64,000 nucleotides of DNA. It comes from Dysgonomonas sp. 25. Lineage in GTDB: Bacteria > Bacteroidota > Bacteroidia > Bacteroidales > Dysgonomonadaceae. The number at the start of each line of letters is the position of its first letter. The stretch's first letter is position 1. Positions 3,267 through 43,976 of this stretch are shown piece after piece. The translations under genes and the position numbers were made by a program. Location: the NCBI RefSeq assembly GCF_010501075.1, contig NZ_QVMN01000013.1, positions 1 to 64,000 of the forward strand, given 5' to 3'. The notes beneath the pieces were generated by a model, which did not search any database, was not told the origin of the DNA, and saw only the letters and a list, made by a program, of their open reading frames with translations.

Positions 3267-6200
3267 TTATTCTCGTTCCTCTATACCGATTCTCCTGAGG
3301 TCATTATTGGCATTCACCACAGGGAAGTACATCATCTCGGCCTTAGCTGGATTCAGTATATAACGCCCTGTATAGCGCGGAAGCAGATCTATCTGGAACG
3401 TATAAGTACCCATCGGAAGGCTTTCGCAGAAGATAACGGTCTTATCCTTGAACGACTCGCGGTGTGTCTCACGATTAGACCACCAGTAGTTCTGCCGCTT
3501 GCTGTTGTAGCTACATCCCGCAGGGATAGGCACTTCTATCATCACATGCTCGGCATTCTTCTGTTTCACCTCCAGCGTCACGGTCAATATGGCCGGCACG
3601 CCGGCTGTAAGCGTATCGCCGGCACCGAGGCTTGTCCTTATCTCGAAAGCATCGCCTTTGTTCTCTTCGGTTACCCACTTCATCTTGTAAGCCGAATAGA
3701 TTAGCGGCAGCCCGGTTTGCTTCTCGATAGTCAGGCGTTCGTTCGGAAGCAGGGTGGTTTCGTAAGGGAACTCGGTCAACTGCTTGTTATCCTTACCCGA
3801 CAGCAGGACAGACGAAGGTGTCTTTTTCGATGCCGATTCAGCCATCAGATCGGGCAGGATAGCCATAGTGGCCGTAGAAGCCTGATAGGTATTCCAACCC
3901 GACCCTTTCGTCCCGAGGATATACATCTGCATCGGCTCTTTCAGATGCGCCAGCGTCGAATCGTTGCGGGCAATGCGATAAGCTATGACAGTGGTCATCA
4001 TATCGTCGCTATACCAGTATCGCTGCTTGCCATCGGAGCAATAAACAGCTCCCAATACATCCTTCTTGAGGTACTTGGTCAGGCTGTCGGGCGTATAGCC
4101 TATGTTGTGCTTCTGGCGAAGCTCGAGCAGTTGCAGCTTCTCTTTCAGGTAAGAAGTTGTATTCGGGCGTTTGTAATATCGGGCCAGTGTATCGGCTACG
4201 TATTCGAGGTGCTTAATCTCTTTATCGAACAGGTCTATTATCTGGTCGTACTTTTGCTCCGTTCCTGCATCCGACAAGGCATTGATAATGTCCATATCGT
4301 AGATGGAAGCACGGCGGTATCGCTGCGTATCGGTATAATCCTGCGCCGTGCGGCTCAGGTCTACCGTAACCTGATAACCTGCTTTCTTGGCCTCGTTCAA
4401 GGCGCGGATAACGTGTGCCGACATCCAGAACGATGTGCTGGAAGAACGTCCCCACCACGACCAGAGCTTATTCTCGTTGCGGTTCTCTTCCAGACGTTTG
4501 ATGATTCTGTTGACGTGCTTGTCGTCCTTGAACTTCTTGTCTGCATATTGGCAATACAGCCTGTAGTTGAGGAAGCCGATAAGCTTGGATGCCAGCTGCT
4601 CGTTGCAGTCGTATTTGTAGTTGCGGAGATAGCTTGCTGCCTCCATATACACATCCAGCTGCTTAGCCGAAATGGAGATGTGCATTTCCTCGTCAGGTGC
4701 TGCTACTACCTCTTTCCGGTCGCCATTGCGGAGGAAGTCGAGTGTACCCTCGGCGAGTTCCGTTCCCTGACGAAGAACAGGTATGGTGCGCTTTTCGCCG
4801 TCGTTGTATCCATCGTTGCGGCGGAACATATAAGTGGCCGACAGGCTATCGGCAACCGTAGGCGTCACCAGCACCTTGTCCTGATGCGAGGTTGTAAACT
4901 GAATGCTCTTTGACATAACCGTATCTTCTTCGATGGCGAAGGTCACAAGCCCTTCTATATCCTGTTTGCCATAAGTATAGTTACGGATGTTTCCGGCATA
5001 GTAGCTCGAATCGCCTACTACGAGGAAGTGCGGGTTCTTCAGTTCTGCCATCAGTGGCTTATACGACTTGATGTGCTTGCGGGCAGTTCCCGTTTTCAGC
5101 TTCGGATTCATCGCATACACGATTGTATTCCATTGGGTGATATTGTCGGGGAAGGTAACCGTAAACCGGGCTTTACCTTTCTTGTCCGTTACCAGAGCCG
5201 GTTCCCAGAAACCGACATCCGAGAAGTTGCTGCGTAACCCGTTGAGTTGCAACAGCTCGCTATAGAGGCGATCTTCGGCCGCCTGCACCTCGTTTTCGTT
5301 GTCGCCCTCTTCGTCGTCATCCGGCACTTCCGGCGGGGCAGCAGCTTCTGTGGCTATCGCCTCAGAGACGGATATGGAAGAAACCGAGCCGGTCAATGAA
5401 GACTTTCTCACAGTGCCATAGCCTATTACGACCACCTCGTCCAGTCGCTGCATATCGGCTTTCAGCACTACATCGATTATGCTGCCTTTAGTCACTTTCA
5501 GTTCTTCGGTATTATAGCCTATGTAGCTGAATACAAGGGTTGCTTCGTTGCCGTCGACAGCTATTTCAAATCCTCCGTCGATGTCGCTTACCGTCCCATA
5601 GGTTGTCCCTTTGATGTAGACCGTCACCCCGATAAGCGGTTCGCCTTCATCATCTTTCACAATACCTCTCACGGCATTGGCTGCGGAAGATGGGCGTCGC
5701 ACCATCGGCTGGCTGTAATAGGAACTCTGATAGTTCGATGTCTGCTGTGCCGTATAAGGTTGTACTACCCGTGTGCGCAATGCCAGCCATTTCTGCGAGA
5801 GGGTGTCTTTCGGCTGCAACGGCAAGTTAGTCATATCCACCGCTATATAATGCCCCGAAAGAAGCGGAACACTGTCGAAGCAGATATAGTTGCCGCTGTT
5901 GTAGAGCAATATGGCATCGTAGGTCGCTGCCGGAACGGAACTGTACTTCCGCTGACCGTATTCTATCTGGTCGGGGTACAAGAGCTTTTTCGTTTCCACA
6001 TTGCGGAGCAGGAGGTTCGAAACGCCTGTCGTATCCTGCCGCGTCGGCAACTTGAAGTTGGCATGGAATCCGCTTTGCAGGATCTGGATATTCGTAGGCC
6101 GCCAGTTGTCGGTTTCGTTCTTGCAGGCTTCCACTATCCGGTTGAACTCCTTCGTGGTCAGGGTGAAATCATTCAGCCCATAGAAGTTCGTCGTGGAGCT

Positions 6201-33837: not shown

Positions 33838-34753
33838 AGACTTGATTGCAAAAATATTACTATTGGAGCAAAGTTTAACTAAGAATCGGATTTTATCTAC
33901 CCTGTTTTTAGTCAATTCACATCTTAAATTTTTCATTAAAGGATGGTGTAGCCAAATATTGGGAAAAGGGTTTACATGAACCATTGATAGATGAAGCTAC
34001 TTTTTACCGGGTGCAGAATGTTCTTGATGGTAGAGTAATAAAAACTAATCCTAAGTATAGTAAGAAAAGGGAAGATTTATACCTCAGAGACTTTCTTAAA
34101 TGCCCTATCTGTGGGCGCAAACTAACAGGTAGCCCCTCTAAAGGAAATGGGGGTGTTTACAGCTATTATCATTGTGGTAACTCAGGTCATACTTCATTTA
34201 GAGCAGATGAAGCACATAACGAGTTTATAAAGCTATTGTACACATTCAAACCAAAGCAAGAGGTCGCAGATTTGTATGTAGAGATATTGAAAGATGTATC
34301 GAGGGAGCGTAAAGGTGGTTTTAAGGACACGGCAAAGTCCATAACTCCACAAAAGAAACCCTTGAAGCCAAACTTATCACTCTACAAGACAAATGGCTTG
34401 ACGGTAAAACAAATGATAGTGATTACCATTCTATGAAAGAACGCATAGAGAAACAAATATGTGAACTAAAGCATGAAAGGGAACAAGTATTGTCCATTGA
34501 TACCAATTTTGACAGTAAATTAGATTTTGGATTGAATCTGTTATCAAACCTTGATAAGTTCTTTGATTTAATGGATGTTGAGACGAAATATTATCTAATA
34601 GGTTTGATATTTCCCGAAAAACTGCAATTTCAGAAAAATCAATATCAAACCACGAAAATCAATGAGTTCGTAAATACGATTCTTAGTGACAATGCGGGAT
34701 ACAGAACAAAAATAAAACGACTGACTTCTATTTCTGAAAGTCAGTCGCATCAA

Positions 34754-34767
34754 GTGATCCCGCTGGG
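34754..34767. repeat. Probable attachment site: 14-bp copy of the tRNA-Lys 3' end
   Basis: GTGATCCCGCTGGG is identical to 45043-45056, the 3' end of tRNA-Lys plus one base. It lies inside the tail of the recombinase frame. The pair brackets a 10.3-kb AT-rich segment rich in accessory genes. Confidence 0.7.
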
Positions 34768-34807
34768 TTCACAACTTTTATCTCGTAATTGTAGAATAAC
34801 CAATCAT

Positions 34808-35509
34808 TTAGATTATTCGAAAAGGTTCAAACCTAGTTAAGTTTGTTTTCCGTAGTTCTTTGAGTAAAATTAGGTAAATATTTTGGTTTCGATAATTGTA
34901 CCTAAATTCGCACTCTTTTATATGTAAACAGAATGTGTGTTTGTGTACACCTCTGAACTTCGCCAAGCGAACTTTGCAAAGCCCCCAGAAGTTCTCGATT
35001 CCATTAATATGGTTTTGTCCATCGGCAAATTCGTTCTCGCCATGCTTGACCCGATAATGCTTTTTGTACCCATAATTCACAAGCCCGTCGTAGGTCTTGA
35101 AACCATCGGAATATATGACCGCATCAGTGTCGGCTTTGCCTTTAATAATAGGCAATAGCTCACTCACAGAGCAGTTTTTGACGATTTGGGTGTAAACCTT
35201 ATCACCTCGTTTGAGCATTCCGAAAACCGGGATCTTGCCTTTGGCTCCTCGTCCTCGGACTCCGCGTACACGACGCGCTCCGAAATAACTCTCATCGAGT
35301 TCGACCTCGCCGTTTGTGAAAGGACTTTCAGCTTCACAAAGAGAGGCGATGCGAACACGTAACTTATTGTAAATATTGTTTATTGTGTCCTGATTTAATC
35401 CCGTAAATTCAGCGACTTTTTTTGCCTCAATATCAAGGCAAAAAAGTCGTAAAATCAATCGAAATTTACGATCAGAAATCTGCGACCGAAAATAATACTT
35501 GTTACTCAT
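34808..35509 (-). CDS. IS1595-family (ISXO2-like) transposase
   Basis: 233 residues. Contains the ISXO2-like DDE/DDN catalytic core: VELDESYFGARR (first Asp), AVIYSDGFKTYDGLV (second Asp) and HINGIENFWGLCKVRLAKFRG (third acidic/Asn position). N-terminal helices (LFCLDIEAKKVAEFTGLNQDT) resemble an HTH. Oddly, the frame crosses the left inverted repeat and ends 16 bp outside the element, so its last residues (PFRII) and stop codon come from target DNA. The start lies 34 bp inside the right end. Confidence 0.93.
   Translation of the reverse strand: MSNKYYFRSQISDRKFRLILRLFCLDIEAKKVAEFTGLNQDTINNIYNKLRVRIASLCEAESPFTNGEVELDESYFGARRVRGVRGRGAKGKIPVFGMLKRGDKVYTQIVKNCSVSELLPIIKGKADTDAVIYSDGFKTYDGLVNYGYKKHYRVKHGENEFADGQNHINGIENFWGLCKVRLAKFRGVHKHTFCLHIKECEFRYNYRNQNIYLILLKELRKTNLTRFEPFRII
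34816..34823. repeat. Left 8-bp target duplication of the IS1595 element
   Basis: TTCGAAAA directly precedes the left inverted repeat; the same 8 bases follow the right inverted repeat at 35562-35569. Confidence 0.95.
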
Positions 35510-35846: not shown

Positions 35847-36929
35847 ATGTTTATTCATCGACATACAGATTGGAATAATTTCACATGGGATAATGCTCGA
35901 TTAACATCTTTACTGGGAAATGTTCGTTATCTTCAAGGAAAGATATTAGGCCGAATGGAGAGTCTTGGATTCTCTTTGAGAGAAGAAGCTATGTTGACGA
36001 CTTTAACATTAGATGTACTTAAGTCCACAGAAATAGAAGGTGAAATTCTTAACAGGGAGCAAGTCCGTTCTTCTATTGCCCGTCGCTTAGGTATGGAAAT
36101 CGGAGGAGTAGTGGCTTCCTCTCGCAATGTGGACGGAGTAGTGGAAATGATGCTTGACGCAACTCAAAACTACCAGTCTCCTTTGACTGAAGAACGGTTA
36201 TTTGGATGGCATGCTGCATTATTTCCTACTGGTTATAGTGGAATGTACAAAATAGAAGTCGCTCAATATCGAACTGGTGATATGCAGGTTGTTTCTGGAG
36301 CAATGGGAAAAGAAAAAATACACTACCAAGCTCCTGATGCAAAATCCGTTCAAAAAGAGATGAGTATTTTTTTGAATTGGTTGAATAACAATAAATCAAC
36401 CGATCCTGTAATCAAGGCTGCTATCGCTCACTTTTGGTTTGTTACGATCCACCCGTTTGATGATGGAAACGGAAGAATTACACGAGCTATAACTGATATG
36501 CTTTTGGCTCGTAGTGACAGAACCTCGCAACGTTTTTATAGTATGTCCAATCAGATTCTATCTGAGCGTAAAATATATTATAAAATTCTTGAGAGATCTC
36601 AACGAGGAAATAAAGATATTACCGAATGGTTGAATTGGTTTCTCTCGTGTCTGGAAAGAGCATTGACCAATACTGAAGAACTATTGAATTCTATCTTGAT
36701 AAAAGCTCGATTTTGGGAGAGCCATACCCTTACTATATTAAATGAGCGTCAGAAAATAATGTTGAATAAATTGCTTGACGGTTTTGATGGAAAACTTACA
36801 TCTTCTAAATGGGCTAAAATCACAAAAACATCTTCAGATACAGCTTTAAGAGATATACAGGATTTGGTGTTAAAAGGTATTCTTCGAAAAGAATCGCAAG
36901 GTGCTAATACTAATTATGTGATTAACTGA
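35847..36929 (+). CDS. Fic family protein with DUF4172 and winged-helix tail
   Basis: 360 residues. N-terminal DUF4172-like region (WNNFTWDNARLTSLLGNVRYLQGKILG), inhibitory motif STEIEG at residues 60-65 matching (S/T)xxxE(G/N), Fic core HPFDDGNGR at residues 202-210, and a C-terminal winged helix (SSKWAKITKTSSDTALRDIQDLVLKGIL). Fic enzymes transfer AMP or related groups from nucleotides to protein targets; the N-terminal inhibitory helix keeps it autoinhibited. The wHTH tail and upstream dyads suggest self-regulation. It is likely a stress or selfish accessory gene of the island. Confidence 0.9.
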   Translation: MFIHRHTDWNNFTWDNARLTSLLGNVRYLQGKILGRMESLGFSLREEAMLTTLTLDVLKSTEIEGEILNREQVRSSIARRLGMEIGGVVASSRNVDGVVEMMLDATQNYQSPLTEERLFGWHAALFPTGYSGMYKIEVAQYRTGDMQVVSGAMGKEKIHYQAPDAKSVQKEMSIFLNWLNNNKSTDPVIKAAIAHFWFVTIHPFDDGNGRITRAITDMLLARSDRTSQRFYSMSNQILSERKIYYKILERSQRGNKDITEWLNWFLSCLERALTNTEELLNSILIKARFWESHTLTILNERQKIMLNKLLDGFDGKLTSSKWAKITKTSSDTALRDIQDLVLKGILRKESQGANTNYVIN

Positions 36930-37126: not shown

Positions 37127-38143
37127 TTAGTTGGGTTTTTCGTCTTTTAGATTATAATCTAGGGCTTGTTTTAATGATTTATCAAAATTTGATTGCTCTT
37201 CTACAAATAATATACCTTGAATTGGTTTTGGGCTTGTTGTTTTTTCTATCTTTTCAACCTCTTCTTCTATTTCTTCAAAGTTAAGCTCTTGTTGTCCGTT
37301 GTTTCGGTCAACCATTTTATTAAAGTTTCTCTTAAATTCAGCCCAATTACCCGAAATATTCATTATACCAATAACTTTATATATTTGAGCTGTAAGTGCA
37401 GGGTGTCCAATATCAGGTGTTAGGCTTTGAAAAAATCTTGCTGTATAATTACCTTGCTCACTTTTTGGTGTTCTAGATTCCAACTCTTCAAGAACATTTT
37501 TTGGTAGTTGCATATATAAGCTCTTTTGTCCATGTGCCGATTACACCTGGTCTTTTTTTAATACCGCTTACTGTATAATCCCATCCTTTCAATCTAAAAA
37601 TTTCATAATAAAATGTGTCAGGAAACATTTTTTGCCATTTTTGAAGCTCCTCACTTATATAAGCCTGCATTATAACTTGTAATGCATCCTTTTCTCTATC
37701 GTATTGATAACCTGTGGCTTCATCTATTAAAGCAGTGATACCAACACGAGCGAATCCCCTTACAAGTATTTCACATTGATCAGCTATTATTTGTTGTCTT
37801 GGAGATAAATGAATATGCTTTCTTGCATCTAAAAAAGCTTCACATATATCGGCTAACACAGTAGCTTCGTATCCATTTATTCTTTGAACTCCTCTATAAC
37901 AAATAATTGGGTCAAAATGGCCATCCTCTTTGTCTTTGTAAATAAATGGTTTAAGTGTTTTTAGTTCATATATCTGGCCAATCTTGTGCCTGATTTACTA
38001 TCGGACTCTTCTTGCAATTTTAGAGCACTTTGCATCGCATTCCCAGATAATACCCTAGTCCCATCTTCTAAAACATAACAAGGAATAACAACATTACCTA
38101 GCGTTATTTCTCCTTCATGTGAAATTTGCCTTTTTTCAGCCAT
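37127..38143 (-). pseudogene. P63C-domain protein gene broken by two frameshifts
   Basis: Three consecutive frames together give one P63C protein. 38143-37961 begins MAEKRQISHEGEITLGN and ends RYMN; a one-base loss near 37963 shifts into LKTLKPFIYKDKEDGHFD...ADICEAFLDARKHIHLS; a shift near 37505 moves to MQLPKNVLEELESRTPKSE, ending at 37127. P63C proteins are phage- or mobile-element-associated with unknown role. Either a decayed gene or sequence errors. It begins immediately after an IS1595 transposase remnant whose stop overlaps this ATG. Confidence 0.8.
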
Positions 38144-38416: not shown

Positions 38417-38854
38417 ATGGATAATCTCATTGACATAATAAAAGGCATTCATCCCGGAAAATTTATCGAAAGGGAGTTGAAAAAAAAGAGACTCAGTCAA
38501 CGTATATTGGCTGAGGAAACGGCTATTCCATATCAGACAATTAATGCTATAATAGCGGGCAGACGCAACCTCACAACTGAACAAGCTCTTAAGATAGACG
38601 AGGCATTAGGTTATGATGAAGGATTTTTCGCGATTCTTCAAACCCATTATGATATAAAACAATACAAAGAAAAAAAACTTGCAGACATATATTCTACAGC
38701 CCCTCGCATTCGGAAGTCTTTATTTTGGGATGCAGATTTCAATAAAATAAATTGGGCTAAATATAAAAATGCTGTAATAAAACGAGTTTTTGAGAGAGGG
38801 AGTAAGGAGGAAATAGAAGAAATTACTCAATATTATAATCTATCTACAAAATAA
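38417..38854 (+). CDS. HigA-like XRE-family HTH antitoxin/regulator
   Basis: 145 residues from ATG 38417; an upstream TTG start would fall on the promoter box. Residues about 10-75 form an XRE helix-turn-helix (IHPGKFIERELKKKRLSQRILAEETAIPYQTINAIIAGRR). The C-terminal part is helical with KSLFWDADFNKINWAKYKNAVIKRVFERG. It is followed after 11 bp by an AbiEii-type nucleotidyltransferase gene, so it is most likely the antitoxin and repressor of that pair. Confidence 0.85.
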   Translation: MDNLIDIIKGIHPGKFIERELKKKRLSQRILAEETAIPYQTINAIIAGRRNLTTEQALKIDEALGYDEGFFAILQTHYDIKQYKEKKLADIYSTAPRIRKSLFWDADFNKINWAKYKNAVIKRVFERGSKEEIEEITQYYNLSTK

Positions 38855-38865
38855 AATATCAGACA

Positions 38866-39519
38866 ATGGCTACCAAACTTCATTATGAAACAGTTACGCC
38901 TCTGTTGAGAAAGGTTCTAAACGATATAATGGCTAATCCTATATTTGAGCCGTTCTATTTGGTAGGTGGTACTTCTCTAAGTTTACGATTAGGACATCGA
39001 ATCTCGGTTGATATAGATTTATTCACCAATGCTCCTTATGGTAGTTTAGATTTTTCCATTTATGAGAAATTCTTTCAAGATAATTACCAATATTATTATT
39101 CTACGGATAAAACTGATTTTGTTGGTTTTGGTCGTTCATATTATATTGGCGAATCAGAAGACGATAATATAAAAGTCGATTTATATTATCATGATGAAAT
39201 AATCGATTCTTGTGATGTAATAGATAATATTCGGATAGCTAGTCTTGATGATGTTGTCGCTATGAAAGTCGATGTTATTTCTCGTGGGGGGCGAAAAAAG
39301 GATTTCTGGGATTTACACGAACTTTTGAATACTTACAGCATCTCTCAAATGTTAGAACTACATAAACAACGGCATGAATATACTCATGAACGAGATCAGA
39401 TTATTGCTAATTTTACAGACTTTGCTTCTGCTGATGAAGATATTGATCCTATCTGTCTAAAAGGTAAAGAATGGGAATTGATAAAGTTGGATTTTGTGGA
39501 GATGACAGGTATATTATGA
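38866..39519 (+). CDS. AbiEii/MenT-type nucleotidyltransferase toxin
   Basis: 217 residues. Nucleotidyltransferase fold motif GGTSLSLRLGHR (Gly34 onward) followed by SVDIDLF with the metal-binding Asp pair, and a later NIRIASLDDVVAMKVDVISRGGRKKDFWDL, characteristic of the AbiEii/AbiGii family. Family members modify tRNA or other targets with nucleotides and act as toxins in abortive-infection or addiction modules. Coupled to the HTH gene directly upstream. AT-rich like the rest of the island. Confidence 0.88.
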   Translation: MATKLHYETVTPLLRKVLNDIMANPIFEPFYLVGGTSLSLRLGHRISVDIDLFTNAPYGSLDFSIYEKFFQDNYQYYYSTDKTDFVGFGRSYYIGESEDDNIKVDLYYHDEIIDSCDVIDNIRIASLDDVVAMKVDVISRGGRKKDFWDLHELLNTYSISQMLELHKQRHEYTHERDQIIANFTDFASADEDIDPICLKGKEWELIKLDFVEMTGIL

Positions 39520-39586: not shown

Positions 39587-39799
39587 TTAGCTTGTATGGC
39601 ATGGATTACAGCAATAGTGGCAACCGTTTATCTTGCGATATGGATATAAACTTTTAGCTTTAGCTACAGCATCTCTACAATTACTAAACATGCCTAGATA
39701 AGTTCTGTTATGCTCATAAGGTAAATAACTGCAACCTTCGCAATGAACTTCATAATCACCATTTGACTGTTGATTGTTGTTTAAATAATACTTTTTCAT
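39587..39799 (-). CDS. Small Cys-rich protein, end of the ubiquitin-like operon
   Basis: 70 residues starting MKKYYLNNNQQSNGDYEVHCEGCSYLP, with NRTYLGMFSNCRDAVAKAK in the middle and CHYCCNPCHTS at the end. Seven cysteines and paired histidines suggest a small zinc-binding fold. No catalytic family recognised. It is codirectional with, and 142 bp downstream of, the 57-aa gene, so membership in the operon is probable but not certain. Confidence 0.6.
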   Translation of the reverse strand: MKKYYLNNNQQSNGDYEVHCEGCSYLPYEHNRTYLGMFSNCRDAVAKAKSLYPYRKINGCHYCCNPCHTS

Positions 39800-39941
39800 A
39801 TTAAATTATTTCTAAAAATTTTATTTACTAATTAGATTTATATTGCTATAATAAACAATATTTGTTTTCTTATGTAATTATTATACCATAGGCTTTTATC
39901 AATTTTAATAGTTTAACACCAAAGGCTCATTTATTACGAGT

Positions 39942-40115
39942 CTATTTCTCTTTTCGAACACCTTTGAATTTTCCGCCACTAGTCTTCACATCCATAAACC
40001 TGCCTGTATTTGAGTCACGCTTCACATACAAACCTGTTTTAGGATTAAGAACTTGACTTCTTTCTTTTACTGCTCCTTTACGAGCATTATCGCCATAAGG
40101 CTTATTTACTGCCAT
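39942..40115 (-). CDS. 57-residue basic protein in the ubiquitin-like operon
   Basis: ATG at 40115, stop at 39942-39944. Begins MAVNKPYGDNARKGAVKERS, contains NPKTGLYVKRDSNTGRFMDVK and ends KGVRKEK: strongly basic, Gly/Asn-rich and probably flexible. Its ATG overlaps the last 14 bp of the DUF6527 gene, which indicates translational coupling. The pattern resembles small proteins common in Bacteroidetes accessory regions, of unknown function. It could be a substrate, adaptor or regulator of the system (inference). Confidence 0.7.
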   Translation of the reverse strand: MAVNKPYGDNARKGAVKERSQVLNPKTGLYVKRDSNTGRFMDVKTSGGKFKGVRKEK

Positions 40116-40497
40116 AATTTATTTTTTTCTTTTTTGTTATAAATTCTTTTATCAGAGGAATTAGTTTCTTCTTCCGTTTCTTCTTTTTCCTCTCGTTTTT
40201 TAATTCGATCTTGATATTCTTGCGATTATCATCAATAAACACAAAATGGTTATCTCTAATCCAATAATGAGAACGACATGGAAAGTTCCAGTTTCCTATC
40301 GATGGGTTTAGTGATACCTTTTCGCCATCAAATTTCAAATGCCAACCAGAAGGAGCTAATGGTGTTATCGTTTTACTACCACAACCACATGCACATAAAT
40401 GAATTGCTACCACACACTCTATGGAGATGTACAGCACATTTTCTTCTAAGCTAGGCGGCATGAGCTCTACAAACTTATGTGTGAATTGTTTCTTCAT
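40102..40497 (-). CDS. DUF6527 family protein of the ubiquitin-like system
   Basis: 131 residues. Family pattern FVELMPPSLEENVLYIS, HLCACGCGSKTITPLAPSGW, SLNPSIGNWNFPCRSHYWI. The CxCGC cluster plus the later Cys-Arg-Ser-His suggests a metal site. The C-terminus is an unusual Lys/Arg-rich tail (KNERKKKKRKKK). In other genomes such proteins are encoded with ThiF/E1-like and multi-ubiquitin proteins (family knowledge). It could act as a transfer or recognition factor; its biochemical role is not established. It overlaps the E1-like gene by 23 bp and the 57-aa gene by 14 bp. Confidence 0.8.
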   Translation of the reverse strand: MKKQFTHKFVELMPPSLEENVLYISIECVVAIHLCACGCGSKTITPLAPSGWHLKFDGEKVSLNPSIGNWNFPCRSHYWIRDNHFVFIDDNRKNIKIELKNERKKKKRKKKLIPLIKEFITKKKKINYGSK

Positions 40498-41656
40498 TTA
40501 ATAAATCTGAATCATTTATTGAATAGGTTGAATGAAACTCTTGTATCAAGTCTTGATAAAAGCCATTCATCTTTTTCCATTTAATAACAGCGAATACAGC
40601 ATTTAAAGCATTAAGATCAGCAATTTGAATATTTGTAGAATATTCATTCTCAGGCTCATTGTTTTCTGATAAGGGTAATCTTTTGATGATATGATCGTTC
40701 TTTACTAAGTTAGCAGACGTTGTTCTGACTATTCCAATCAGCTTATCACCAACTATGTTTACTCCCATTCCAACATCAATAAAGCTTATCCCTTGTTTCA
40801 AAAGATATTCTACTATAGTTTTCCGAGAACTGTCGTTATCAATGCATATAAAGACGTGCGACATCGACGATAACTCATCGATATTCTCCTTAGTAACATA
40901 TTTAGCATGTGGTATTACCCCTTTGTGCATATTCAGGTATAAACTGGCAAAATAATCAGCTTTATATTTTTGACTACTTAGCATCTCTTTGTTAGGAGCA
41001 CCAGGTGCTCTGAATGCATTGTGTTGTAAAAATTTATCTCCATCATAAAGGTGGATTTCAGATACAGGTGTCTTTGCCACTAAATCCAAGATATATGAGC
41101 CGGTACCGCCGAGTCCAATAATAGCAATTTTTTGTCCTCTAAACTTGTTGTTCAGATAGTAAGTATTTGCACGACTGGAGCATGTATCAGCATACTGGAA
41201 AACATCATTATCTGTGCTATCAATAACCTTATAAGTCCGAACTTCAACAGAAGGATCAAGTGATATCGCCGGAGATGATATTATTTCAATATACCTTGTA
41301 ATCTGCTCATAATGATCCGCATATCCTTTTGGCGGTTTATTAGAGAAGGAATAATTCATTATTATATCATCCGTTAGTTTCTGATTAGGATTCGCATGCC
41401 TAATAGCTGATATAGGAGAACCATCTTTATGGCATGGAAAATCACCCATAAACTGGATAACATGATTACCAGAATACTTTGCAATATTATTATTTAAAGT
41501 AAGCGCAACAATCAGTTTCCCATACTTAATACACCTATCTTTATCTACGTAGGGTATGTGGTGGGTAATTAGATACCCACCTTTGATTTCAACTTCATAC
41601 CCTTCATTTTGCAGCCTTTTAAGGTCTGGACTATGATCTATTAGTTTCTGTGACAT
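40475..41656 (-). CDS. E1-like ThiF adenylyltransferase with N-terminal E2-like/DUF6791 region
   Basis: 393 residues. Residues about 1-165 form an N-terminal domain (GYLITHHIPYVDKDRCIKYG, VIQFMGDFPCHKDGSPI) that may be E2/UBC-like, with Cys75 in PCHKDG. Residues about 172-390 are a ThiF/E1 domain: GLGGTG at 181-186, Asp205, Asn213 and Arg216 (YDGDKFLQHNAFR), CIDND around Asp273. No cysteine follows Cys271, so the classical E1 thioester Cys is missing. Expected reaction is ATP-dependent adenylation of a ubiquitin-like C-terminus. It overlaps the ubiquitin gene by 26 bp. Confidence 0.85.
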   Translation of the reverse strand: MSQKLIDHSPDLKRLQNEGYEVEIKGGYLITHHIPYVDKDRCIKYGKLIVALTLNNNIAKYSGNHVIQFMGDFPCHKDGSPISAIRHANPNQKLTDDIIMNYSFSNKPPKGYADHYEQITRYIEIISSPAISLDPSVEVRTYKVIDSTDNDVFQYADTCSSRANTYYLNNKFRGQKIAIIGLGGTGSYILDLVAKTPVSEIHLYDGDKFLQHNAFRAPGAPNKEMLSSQKYKADYFASLYLNMHKGVIPHAKYVTKENIDELSSMSHVFICIDNDSSRKTIVEYLLKQGISFIDVGMGVNIVGDKLIGIVRTTSANLVKNDHIIKRLPLSENNEPENEYSTNIQIADLNALNAVFAVIKWKKMNGFYQDLIQEFHSTYSINDSDLLNEETIHT

Positions 41657-42290
41657 TGAAAATCATTTTATTTTTGATGTAAATAATATCGCCTTTATCC
41701 ATAGAGCCGTTAGGATTCTGACGAGGTCCGTTGCTATACTTCATCGTATACGCTATCTGGTCATGATTTATAGCCGGAAAAGCTAAAGAAAGTACTTCTT
41801 CAAAAGAAATTACATTCTTTTTCCATTCCTTTTCATCTCCATTAACACGAATAGTGTAGCAAGTCGGTTTTGCAACAGTTACGAATCTTTCTTTTCCTGG
41901 TCTAGCCAAGTCGACAAGTTCATCGTCCTCTATGAAATCATCCTGCCATCCTTCATCCACTTTGAGGTAGATATCCATATCTGTGGGAACATTCCCTTTC
42001 TCACGCAATTCAACACCAGAAATCCATTGTTTATATGAAGTATATTCTACTTCATTTATAAAATAATATAATTTTCGTTGCTTTGTAAAGAACTGTTCGA
42101 TATCGGGTCTTGCCAGATTTACACGAGTTTCGTTTTCTATAAGCTCGTCCTCGAAGGGCCTTTTTATTGCAAGATACAACTCTACATCAAGTGGAATACC
42201 TGCTTGTTTTTTTAGTTCAGTACCAGTTATATACTGTTGAGTTATTTGGAAGGTTTTCCCTTCAATTGTATAATTCAAAATATTATTCAT
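41631..42290 (-). CDS. Multi-ubiquitin domain protein
   Basis: 219 residues with three beta-grasp repeats: about 6-71 (VELYLAIKRPFEDELIENETRVNLARP), about 74-141 (MDIYLKVDEGWQDDFIEDDELVDLARPGKERF) and about 144-219 (CYTIRVNGDEKEW ... NGSMDKGDIIYIKNKMIFNV). The first two are closely related; the third is different and ends TETNRS. This matches the multiubiquitin family (PF14452 type). No diglycine terminates the protein or the repeats. It leads a leftward operon with an E1-like and a DUF6527 gene, so it is the likely modifier. Confidence 0.87.
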   Translation of the reverse strand: MNNILNYTIEGKTFQITQQYITGTELKKQAGIPLDVELYLAIKRPFEDELIENETRVNLARPDIEQFFTKQRKLYYFINEVEYTSYKQWISGVELREKGNVPTDMDIYLKVDEGWQDDFIEDDELVDLARPGKERFVTVAKPTCYTIRVNGDEKEWKKNVISFEEVLSLAFPAINHDQIAYTMKYSNGPRQNPNGSMDKGDIIYIKNKMIFNVTETNRS

Positions 42291-42519
42291 TATTAAAAAA
42301 ATTAAAGATTTTCGTAATTAAATTATCTATATACAAAGCTTGAATCTCTAAATTGAGAAAAAGCAATGTGCGTAACTCATACAAGAGTTTTCGTGTTTTA
42401 ATTATAAGTGCCTAATAATCTTTTTAATAATTAGTAATTAACCGAATAGTCAAAGTGTTTTTTAGGCTTCGACTATGTTAAAAATAACCCAAAACTTGAA
42501 AAGTACTCAAAAGTTTTAC

Positions 42520-42527
42520 TATATTTG
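42520..42527 (+). promoter_or_regulatory. Putative promoter of a small RNA
   Basis: TATATTTG fits TAnnTTTG; TTG at 42496-42498 could be the -33 element (21-nt spacer). Confidence 0.45.
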
Positions 42528-42533
42528 AACTAC

Positions 42534-42625
42534 CACATTCATATAGTTGAGTGTGCCTGGCAAGGGCCAACTCTCCTTAAGAATACATTCAAAGCCTGGG
42601 TTTTTCAACCTGGGCTTTTGTATTT
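42534..42625 (+). ncRNA. Candidate small RNA upstream of the XRE/ImmA genes
   Basis: From just after the -7 box the sequence can fold AGTTG...CAACT around an inner GCC...GGC stem (about 42544-42572) and ends in a terminator hairpin at 42591-42625. No long reading frame. It does not match an RNA family I recognise. It lies between the divergent ubiquitin-like operon and XRE gene and could instead be a structured leader for the XRE gene. Confidence 0.4.
42591..42625 (+). terminator. Terminator-like hairpin
   Basis: AAGCCTGGGTT and AACCTGGGCTT pair with two G-U wobbles around a short loop and are followed by TTTGTATTTTT. Confidence 0.6.
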
Positions 42626-42751
42626 TTCACAAAGGTAACACAAAATCTAAATATATCAAGCAAATCTAAAAAAAGTTATCAAGTATTTAGCAATGCTTGT
42701 TCTTTTGAATATAATTCATACATTTGTAGAGTAAACTAAAAAGGAGCAATC

Positions 42752-43081
42752 ATGAAATCAATTGGAAGTATCTTGAAAAATTCACGAGACTTAATGCAAT
42801 TGACATTACGACAGGTTGAAGAGGCTACTGGAATCTCAAATGCTTATCTAAGTCAATTAGAAAATGACAAAATAAAGAAGCCTTCTGCGAACGTACTATA
42901 TAAGTTGTCAAACATATATGGGATCAGTATAAATGATTTGCTAGCAGCAGCAGGCATCATAGAAAAACAAGCATCAGAAAGACATAAGCTATTAAGTTCA
43001 GTTGCTTTTTCTACAGAATCACTAACAGAGAAGGAAGAGGAAGAGTTGCTTAAATATCTGAAATTCATCAGACAGAAATAA
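42752..43081 (+). CDS. XRE-family HTH regulator
   Basis: 109 residues. Residues 6-60 are a classic XRE/Cro helix-turn-helix (LKNSRDLMQLTLRQVEEATGISNAYLSQLENDKIKKPS), with an acidic C-terminal tail (LTEKEEEELLKYLKFIRQK). A purine-rich site (aaaaaggagcaatc) precedes the ATG. The stop is 7 bp before an ImmA/IrrE protease gene, the standard repressor/anti-repressor-protease arrangement. Its promoter region faces the ubiquitin-like operon, so it may repress that operon too (inference). Confidence 0.9.
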   Translation: MKSIGSILKNSRDLMQLTLRQVEEATGISNAYLSQLENDKIKKPSANVLYKLSNIYGISINDLLAAAGIIEKQASERHKLLSSVAFSTESLTEKEEEELLKYLKFIRQK

Positions 43082-43088
43082 TTATGAA

Positions 43089-43976
43089 ATGGATCTTTAT
43101 ACGAAGAAAGACATAGAAAAAATCTCATATGAGATTTTAAAAAGCAGTAAAAGTTTAGATATTTTCCCTACTCCTGTTGATCGTATTGTTTCATATACAG
43201 AATTAGCTATAAATAAAGGAATAGACCTATCAAAAATTCACCCCAATTATTTATCAAAAGGGACAGATATTTTGAAGAGAGCTCTAGGTAAAGTAAAAGG
43301 TGTATTTGATCGAAAAGAAAAAATAATTCATCTTGACTTATCATTGATTGGTGCTAAACAGAATTTTGTTAAACTTCATGAGGTTGGTCATGGGGTTCTT
43401 CCTTGGCAACAAAGTACGTATGAAATATGTGAGGACGATGAAGATTCTTTAAGCCCTGAGACTCGGGATGATTTTGAAATTGAAGCAAATACTTTCGCTT
43501 CAATTACTCTATTCCAGTGTGACCGTTTTCATCATGAAATGGAGAAATTAGGGTTAAGTATTGATTCTGCGATATATCTGTCAAAACAATTTGGAGCATC
43601 AATTCATGCTGCTCTTAGAAAATATGTAGAAGATTCAAATAATAGATGTGCTCTCCTTGTTTTGAAAGACAGAACTCCTGTCGGTGCACTATTGAGGAAT
43701 CTCTTTCAGTCCGAAAGGTTTACTAAAACATATGGAATGTTGTCTATTCCAGATACCCTTGATTATTTTTCATGGCCTTTTATTCAAGACTATTGCCATA
43801 GGCGTAAGCGGAGAGATGATGGACTAGTAACTATTATGACTGAAAATGGAAGTGTTGATTTTAAATATCATTTTTTCGATAATAGCTATAATGCCTTTGT
43901 CTTTATTTTCCCGATAGGAGAGAAGAAAAGTACAAGGACAAAATTTATTATTTCAGATAACAATATCCAATTATAA
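43089..43976 (+). CDS. ImmA/IrrE-family zinc metallopeptidase
   Basis: 295 residues. Zinc motif HEVGHG at residues 97-102 (HExxH) and a downstream ETRDDFEIEANTFAS, which supplies the third ligand region typical of ImmA/IrrE. The C-terminal about 130 residues are mixed alpha/beta with no recognised domain. In known systems such proteases cut a cognate XRE repressor after DNA damage or another signal and so induce mobile-element or stress genes. Here the partner is the gene 7 bp upstream. Confidence 0.9.
   Translation: MDLYTKKDIEKISYEILKSSKSLDIFPTPVDRIVSYTELAINKGIDLSKIHPNYLSKGTDILKRALGKVKGVFDRKEKIIHLDLSLIGAKQNFVKLHEVGHGVLPWQQSTYEICEDDEDSLSPETRDDFEIEANTFASITLFQCDRFHHEMEKLGLSIDSAIYLSKQFGASIHAALRKYVEDSNNRCALLVLKDRTPVGALLRNLFQSERFTKTYGMLSIPDTLDYFSWPFIQDYCHRRKRRDDGLVTIMTENGSVDFKYHFFDNSYNAFVFIFPIGEKKSTRTKFIISDNNIQL

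Follow-up and report, generated by a model that had tools for sequence, protein, structure and literature searches.

A possible damage-controlled, JAB-less ubiquitin-like conjugation cassette on a low-GC island of Dysgonomonas sp. 25

How far can ubiquitin-like chemistry be simplified? The question is raised by a cluster of overlapping genes in Dysgonomonas sp. 25, carried on a stretch of 64,000 bp (contig NZ_QVMN01000013.1, positions 1 to 64,000) that we call the window, and encoding a multi-ubiquitin protein (mUb, the ubiquitin-like protein or Ubl of the locus), an E1-like enzyme and a protein of family DUF6527. We tentatively read the cluster as a Ubl conjugation cassette under DNA-damage control and without a JAB peptidase, a minimal relative of the Bub operons; this reading may well be right, and we are slightly more doubtful than confident about it. 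If it is right, three genes of about 2.2 kb make up a very small set for Ubl tagging, one that would separate questions tied together in eukaryotes, namely the need for Gly-Gly, for a cysteine relay and for reversal.

A preliminary description of this DNA had claimed five open reading frames (ORFs) with overlaps of 26, 23 and 14 bp, and all were confirmed as described. The mUb, E1, DUF6527 and 57-amino-acid ORFs overlap successively by these lengths on the minus strand (42290-39942), and a 70-amino-acid ORF starts 142 bp downstream of the 57-amino-acid gene on the same strand (Table 1). Profile searches placed the three main genes in the families proposed for them, all over the Pfam cut-offs: mUb matches Multi_ubiq (PF14452, 1.1e-26) in three stretches, the enzyme described as ThiF with an extra N-terminal domain consists of DUF6791 (PF20590, 4.7e-54) and ThiF (PF00899, 7.7e-12), and the third protein matches DUF6527 (PF20137, 9.6e-24). 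The E1 also exceeds the cut-off of NF004805, an NCBIfam family without a name. The claimed lack of a JAB peptidase agrees with the Pfam search, in which none of the five proteins matched JAB at E values up to 1.

The core of the operon is three genes. Twenty-nine of 32 related loci (L027-L058) hold mUb, E1 and DUF6527 in the same order, the remaining three (L027, L032 and L056) being cut by contig ends, so the co-occurrence expected from the preliminary description is borne out; these loci are not all independent, L029 being close to L028, and L027 and L032 being two contig ends of one genome. The 26-bp overlap of mUb and E1 recurs in 33 of the 35 loci compared, in Bacteroidota as well as Pseudomonadota. 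The closest E1 relative with a species name, from D. hofstadii DSM 104969, is 95% identical over residues 1-248, and DNA identity between the two strains (92-97%) covers 40112-42291, that is, the three genes only, with different regulators beside them. The interrupted E1 gene of D. hofstadii could be taken to favor chance or decaying ORFs without a common function; the fixed gene order, the 26-bp overlap across phyla and the active-site conservation set out below already refute this explanation, to which we give practically no credence. The D. hofstadii gene is broken at contig ends (L027 8001-8747 and L032 154-546), with 13 bp of window sequence on both sides of the break, as an insertion would give; because of this interruption, the E1 may be non-working there.

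The operon belongs to a kind already in print. Iyer, Burroughs and Aravind (2006; PMC1779556) list, in row 6e of their Table 1, polyUbl operons comprising a polyUbl, an inactive E2/RWD-like domain, a JAB-E1 and a metal-binding protein, some of the E1s carrying a "domain X" for JAB. The window shares with this class a tandem Ubl (the three PF14452 stretches), an E1 with a distinct non-JAB N-terminal domain (DUF6791 before ThiF), a small, putatively metal-binding protein and a mobile distribution, and differs from it in having no separate inactive E2 gene. The metal signature of the window protein, C35-x3-C39-x34-C74-x2-H77, compares with C-x3-C-x(35-38)-H-x2-C in class 6e, the spacing being similar and the last two residues swapped. 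We infer that DUF6791 is the domain X of 2006; if so, the window fits the JAB-less form of class 6e, and the results below offer a likely E2/RWD-like identity for that domain. The class 6e text examined mentions neither a serine C-terminus nor an E2-like domain X. The Synechocystis pSYSX cassette (PMC4963859, 2016; L147) likewise has multiubiquitin, E1 and metal-binding protein in order, with an XRE/COG2856 pair alongside; its fourth gene, called a metal-binding protein in that paper, follows the E1 and is annotated DUF6527. Unlike the window, it has a separate E2 gene and a JAB-type E1. The preliminary description treated the co-occurrence of the three families as family knowledge; it missed these two reports.

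Among solved proteins the window E1 is closest to Citrobacter BubCD, of the BubCD-BubB-BubA set (PDB 9ea4, 9eae and 9eav), and is of the BubCD kind. Unlike Bub, the window has no JAB domain (that of BubCD being deduced by motif from its relative L149) and no separate or Ubl-fused Prok-E2_E domain, and its Ubl ends in Ser; a search of the strain's own genome with Prok-E2_E (PF14462) gave no match. The Ubl is related to BilA (PDB 8u38, 3.8e-6) of the bacterial ISG15-like (Bil) operons, which are defined by a Ubl with a Gly terminus, a JAB deconjugase and a separate E2 gene; the window Ubl, in contrast, ends in Ser, and both JAB and a separate E2 gene are missing. Cap2 of type II cyclic oligonucleotide-based antiphage signaling systems (CBASS), an E2-E1 fusion, would be similar in architecture if the window E1 holds an E2-like domain, a relation that is weak for DUF6791; unlike CBASS, no cyclase was seen beside the window operon. 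With the class in print since 2006, a regulator link since 2016 and a Ubl fold in the PDB, the locus is ordinary in kind. It is unusual in detail: a JAB-less operon, a Ubl ending in serine, an E1 lacking a conserved cysteine in its ThiF half and possibly a built-in E2-like domain.

In the ThiF domain the adenylation residues are conserved in the alignment: G183, G184, G186, D205, D207, N213, R216 and K232 are kept in all 36 E1 sequences, D273 in all 35 with a letter at that position, and G181 in 35 of 36. In the same alignment the ThiF half has no conserved cysteine, the commonest column among window positions (271, beside D273) being Cys in only 23 of 35 sequences. Tyr339, by comparison, is present in 34 of 35, and the exception (L058) has a Tyr one residue off. 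A profile of the ThiF half matches 13 JAB-type E1s at 1.3e-20, and Tyr339 falls on a column that is Tyr in 12 of the 13 and includes Tyr370 of L149. This last protein is a close BubCD relative (844 bits over 454 residues) with a JAB-type SHPG motif, recognized by eye, Asp104 and Tyr370; the PDB chain of BubCD counts two residues more than L149, and PDB titles name BubCD mutants D104A and Y370F made by the depositors. A ThiF half with this tyrosine and no conserved cysteine is apparently new. We infer that Tyr339 may take over the part that a cysteine plays in canonical E1s; the role of Tyr370 in BubCD is read from the mutant names only, which weighs against leaning heavily on it.

The one strongly conserved cysteine among window positions, Cys75, lies in DUF6791 (34 of 36 sequences), and this domain is somewhat more likely than not to be E2/RWD-like. 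When compared with 12 Prok-E2_E sequences, DUF6791 scored 25.3 (P 0.0021), the three other window profiles giving P 0.096 or worse, and none of 200 column shuffles of the E2 alignment reached that score (maximum 18.6). Five of the 12 sequences were chosen by PF14462 match (L132-L135 and L152) and three by annotation (L144, L145 and L147), and four were cut by hand from fused proteins (L146, L148, L149 and L151); with only 4 sequences, an earlier run had given the weaker P of 0.008. The full-length alignment roughly superposes a DG element and the final helix. In the AlphaFold model DUF6791 comprises two helices, a strand meander, Cys75 after the meander and a long helix, an order of elements that one would expect of E2/RWD folds. 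By this weak resemblance of DUF6791 to E2/RWD-like Prok-E2_E, the E1 protein is suggested to be a possible E2-E1 fusion. The relation is apparently new and may already be in print, the literature searches that found no description of it having mostly been aimed elsewhere. No paper was found for DUF6791, PF20590 or "multiubiquitin domain-containing".

Several observations weigh against an E2-like N-terminal domain. The hhalign probability is 13%, the confident part of the alignment is 31 columns, and column shuffling is a lenient control; no Pfam E2 family matched the E1 protein at E values up to 1; PADLOC E1-E2 matches span only residues 132-290; and the E1 model is middling (pLDDT 73, pTM 0.53). 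In L049 and L053 DUF6791 and ThiF are separate overlapping ORFs, which counts in favor of the reading unless these split E1s result from frameshifts. Structural comparison contributes little here: Foldseek overlaps with BubCD extend over 313-342 columns at an rmsd near 19, with nothing firm on the N-terminal domain, and E2-like families are missing from the neighbor list of the E1 model, which is filled by E1s and barely covers residues 1-145. The idea of DUF6791 as a degenerate JAB was set aside, its profile comparison having yielded no informative match (score 19.8 over 13 columns). Loci of the Prok-E2_B type were found in 6 of 198 genomes and form no part of the E2 comparison.

The conservation of Cys75 also feeds a Cap2-like alternative, in which the Ubl adenylate would pass to a thioester on Cys75 and on to target lysines, leaving Tyr339 a structural part only; we think this rather unlikely. 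It fits the position of Cys75 after the modeled strand meander, since E2 active sites sit after such a meander, and the references cited by PMC12687455 include a fused E1-E2 protein of antiviral signaling. Opposed to it are the sequences with Arg (L030) and Tyr (L039) at this position; because of these two replacements among 36, Cys75 is not universally catalytic, a point that bears equally on any role for it in the reading we favor. The related E2/RWD-like domain was, moreover, described in 2006 as lacking a cysteine (PMC1779556).

Another unusual detail is the end of the Ubl. Its terminal residue is Ser in 35 of 35 loci, usually within ...FNVTxT(N/D)(K/R)S, and a Gly-Gly ending occurs in none of them. 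The terminal codon lies within the overlap with the E1 gene, and a Ser end arising as a by-product of dual coding was ruled out: five Ser codons are used (TCA in 13 loci, TCT in 12, TCG in 8, AGC and TCC in 1 each), and the E1 residue encoded over the same bases varies (H in 13, L in 12, R in 8, A and P in 1 each). To judge from these codons and the varying E1 residue, the serine is most likely kept for the sake of the Ubl itself. The PDB entry 9cd2, a "ZDHYS365 multi-ubiquitin domain protein" known here as a PDB sequence only, is a relative of the window Ubl (1.9e-15; 2e-33 by profile) that aligns through the last residue and has the same Ser end. Among eight free-ended JAB-type Ubls, assigned by annotation, profile or position, none ends in Ser, the endings being TEG, TEGGAA, STPG, QFG, GYGG and HGTY. 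The Ser end is apparently new; an earlier description is possible, as the literature searches were mostly not aimed at it. The preliminary description, sound in its identification of the multi-ubiquitin protein and of the E1 families, overlooked this serine as well as the cysteine-poor ThiF half and the possible E2-like domain before it.

A tail that is not Gly-Gly, and the presence of MccB and ThiF among the structural and sequence neighbors of the E1, also suit a scheme of activation without protein conjugation. There the product would be a modified Ubl, either linked to AMP in the manner of MccB or serving to carry sulfur, and the three-domain Ubl would itself be the effector, for example as a filament; Gong and colleagues are said to have described in 2025 three-domain bacterial Ubls that form calcium-linked filaments. 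The possible E2-like domain and the constant DUF6527 partner, which JAB-type operons share, argue instead for transfer, and we consider activation alone improbable.

In each of the 29 complete loci of the DUF6791 type, the operon ends with DUF6527. All eight JAB-type plasmid loci examined, hand-picked from 40 listed of 257, carry the same annotation, and a profile found the family in 2 of 4 Prok-E2_E genome loci. In one of the eight, L150 on a Bradyrhizobium plasmid, a further gene sits between the JAB-type E1 and DUF6527 (3723-5312). The family is not specific to mUb/E1 operons: of 43 viral contigs that carry DUF6527, 39 showed no match to E1 or mUb within the stretch examined, which counts against the conjugation reading. 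These stand-alone viral genes (L066-L105 except L067) mostly encode about 90 amino acids.

The model of the window DUF6527 protein (mean pLDDT 88.9) is all-beta with a C-terminal helix, and most viral forms are too short for the helix. No PDB entry matched the model at E 0.001 or better, and of the BFVD entries two did so, neither carrying a name; a RING or treble-clef fold is possible but unsupported by the model. As modeled, DUF6527 would be an apparently new all-beta domain, without a solved relative among the matches; a literature search by that word found no paper. His33, Cys35, Cys37 and Cys39 are invariant in a 34-row alignment, and Cys74 is missing in some viral forms. The JAB-type proteins have not retained His33; L144, L146, L147 and L148 have another residue in place of Cys37, and L145 also lacks Cys39 and Cys74. 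The conserved residues point to a putative zinc site that does not hold for every member.

What would switch such an operon on? Divergent from it are an XRE repressor gene, which matches PADLOC capH (4.7e-10, HTH_VI being slightly better at 1e-10) and Pfam HTH_19 (4e-13), and an M78 metallopeptidase gene, which matches PADLOC capP (3.1e-17) and PF06114 (1.3e-7). The two adjoin each other and a putative immune operon, as in the CapH+CapP layout. Single-stranded DNA activates CapP, which cleaves CapH, and CapW or CapH+CapP accompanies 219 of 544 Bub operons (PMC13373217). Seventeen of 27 related loci have, within six called genes on the upstream side, an M78 gene over the Pfam cut-off; the 27 are the 28 loci with an upstream gene less the near-copy L029, and of 18 candidates scanned L048 failed. 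In the other 10 loci the M78 gene is unconfirmed, which tells against a general switch of this kind.

The link of XRE/M78 pairs to multi-ubiquitin cassettes is itself already published: XRE/COG2856 (DUF955) pairs stand beside 70% of PF14452 proteins and were read as toxin-antitoxin loci that stabilize the cassette (PMC4963859, 2016). If this holds for the window, the pair would be no transcriptional switch. The divergent placement, the capH and capP matches and the later account of CapP cleaving CapH (PMC13373217) speak against it, so that we prefer to read the pair as a probable switch and rate the toxin-antitoxin explanation as unlikely. The preliminary description had seen XRE/ImmA genes here, and they are present; rather than bystanders, they form a divergent CapH/CapP-like pair of a sort that often accompanies these operons. 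In L046 an XRE-M78 fusion lies on the operon strand and is possibly part of a toxin-antitoxin pair.

Plus-strand boxes of the form TAnnTTTG, the -7 motif of Bacteroidota, lie in the divergent region at 42520 and 42719, and a hairpin that resembles a terminator lies between them (42591-42618). Such boxes hardly exceed chance in the 3.2-kb locus (8 found against 4.3 expected, 8 of 200 shuffles reaching 8), and an Rfam search of the region gave nothing over the gathering score. Between 42520 and 42620 a plus-strand box is followed by the hairpin and a T run, and could give a small transcript between the divergent operons. In nine other loci (L035, L036, L037, L040, L042, L047, L049, L132 and L135) the divergent gene is possibly sigma70-like, often of 110-145 amino acids, and most of them carry an M78 protease too, in place of XRE and M78. 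Among seven candidates scanned for sigma regions, L037 alone was over the Pfam cut-off, L040 and L042 were below it, and L028, L033, L036 and L047 gave no match. A sigma70-like gene as a second kind of switch is possible and only a lead.

Taken with published CapH/CapP work, the favored conjugation reading would run as follows. Single-stranded DNA would activate the CapP-like protease, the repressor would be cut, and the overlapping genes would be expressed together. The ThiF domain would adenylate the C-terminal Ser of the three-domain Ubl, and, because the ThiF half has no conserved cysteine, Tyr339, Cys75 of the fused DUF6791 (a possible E2/RWD-like domain), or both would receive or position the Ubl. 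DUF6527 might be a substrate-recruiting or ligase-like subunit. As there is no JAB, the Ubl would need no maturation and the operon itself would not reverse the tagging. Host or phage targets would then probably be modified in the course of DNA damage or of an infection. Weighing on the other side, conjugation, damage induction and phage protection are all unproven predictions. A fully specified pathway, one that dispenses with Gly-Gly, a catalytic-cysteine E1 and a deconjugating protease, adenylates Ser, hands over by tyrosine through a fused E2/RWD-like-E1, uses an all-beta zinc-binding DUF6527 as substrate or ligase module, is irreversible by the operon and is triggered by DNA damage, is doubtful in that complete form. 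Each step is open to point mutants, because the Ser end, Tyr339, Cys75 and the cysteines of DUF6527 are individual residues of small proteins.

A defense role, first proposed along with element control, is plausible and unproven; for the related Bub operons, phage protection is not demonstrated and defense or stress is left open (PMC13373217). Compatible with any of the chemistries above is a purpose in serving the mobile element or general stress rather than phage defense, the cassette acting on host proteins when DNA is damaged, for instance at about the time of excision or transfer, which we hold possible and on balance somewhat unlikely. The E1 matches 116 plasmid records (108 covering at least 80% of its length) and none of 50,697 phage records; a viral scan with the single E1 sequence gave no match, and one with the E1 alignment gave 4 loci. 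CapH/CapP-type control points the same way, as does the 57-amino-acid family, a relative of which lies near a CI-like repressor in one Streptococcus prophage examined. The defense-like neighbors (a SoFic-like Fic protein and AbiEii) argue otherwise, and the discoverers of the JAB-containing relatives called them putative immune pathways (PMC13373217). DUF6791 itself was found in 8 of the 393 genomes searched from the order, in 14 of 395 from the phylum (both counts include the strain's own) and in none of 14 control genomes.

Table 1. Window coordinates of the operon, its divergent regulators and adjoining features
Feature	Position	Strand	Description
Multi-ubiquitin protein (mUb)	41631..42290	-	219 aa; three beta-grasp Multi_ubiq repeats; C-terminus ...FNVTETNRS
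E1-like enzyme	40475..41656	-	393 aa; N-terminal DUF6791 (41183-41629) and ThiF (about 40766-41149)
E1 residues	Cys75 41432-41434, Tyr339 40640-40642	-	both near-invariant
DUF6527 protein	40102..40497	-	131 aa; His33/Cys35/Cys37/Cys39/Cys74/His77 cluster, basic C-terminal helix
57-aa basic protein	39942..40115	-	PDC-S38 family (PADLOC PDLC05010, 1.1e-33); accessory cargo
70-aa Cys-rich protein	39587..39799	-	probably independent island gene, outside operon
XRE repressor, CapH-like	42752..43081	+	divergent from operon; PADLOC capH, HTH_19
ImmA/IrrE (M78) metallopeptidase, CapP-like	43089..43976	+	PADLOC capP, PF06114
Divergent intergenic region, 461 bp	42291..42751		terminator-like hairpin and TAnnTTTG boxes

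The locus looks like part of a mobile DNA island of low GC, which upholds the setting first claimed for it. GC content is 0.30-0.37 at 33-45 kb, against 0.39 at 32-33 kb, 0.44-0.47 before 32 kb and 0.42-0.50 from 45 kb on (the assembly measures 3.74 Mb). A purF-like gene, scoring under the NCBIfam purF cut-off, flanks the island, and the tested island genes are missing beside it in 5 of 5 same-genus loci, the sole other match being a distant SusC in L167. An IS1 transposase (NCBIfam) lies in the same setting. The Fic protein (35847-36929) matches PADLOC SoFic at 3.8e-46 and has relatives of 61-72% identity in 4 of 20 other same-genus genomes, and an XRE/DUF6922 gene followed by an AbiEii-like nucleotidyltransferase (38417-39519) is a possible toxin-antitoxin pair. 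Short, broken-looking ORFs at 33984-35509 and 37127-38143 (recombinase-like pieces, a transposase-like gene and the pieces of a further gene, named by eye) suggest a decayed mobile element.

The two small genes, taken in the preliminary description for operon partners, are instead interchangeable island cargo; as parts of the operon they were ruled out. The 57-amino-acid family, whose PDC-S38 model is matched over all 57 positions (1-57), occurs in 3 of 32 related loci (L034, L043 and L044, directly upstream of mUb), the 70-amino-acid family in 0 of 32. The latter is found on 14 plasmid and 13 phage records. A pair of the two as a unit of its own is not supported either: in the single E. coli plasmid checked, the upstream neighbor of the 70-amino-acid relative does not, by eye, resemble the 57-amino-acid protein. 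A search of the literature for PDC-S38 found no describing paper. Its family is present in 9 of 295 genomes of the class (own included) and in 15 phage records, and in varied company: one relative, on a Phocaeicola plasmid, is flanked by TIR/SIR2 and retron genes, another, in a Streptococcus record, adjoins ImmA/IrrE, and a third, in Hymenobacter, has arsenic genes and no such regulator as neighbors. In two of five plasmid records whose contexts were inspected, from Klebsiella and Serratia (L106 and L108), a WYL-domain regulator adjoins the PDC-S38 gene and is divergent from it.

In D. hofstadii (L032) a DUF2188 protein occupies the slot of the 57-amino-acid gene (905-1129), and DUF2188 small proteins stand in places of that family also in L047 (9150-9395) and in the JAB-type operon L145 (1594-1821). 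YegP-like genes follow capK/capS in 57 cases (PMC13373217), and a theme may be emerging of small proteins encoded behind damage regulators.

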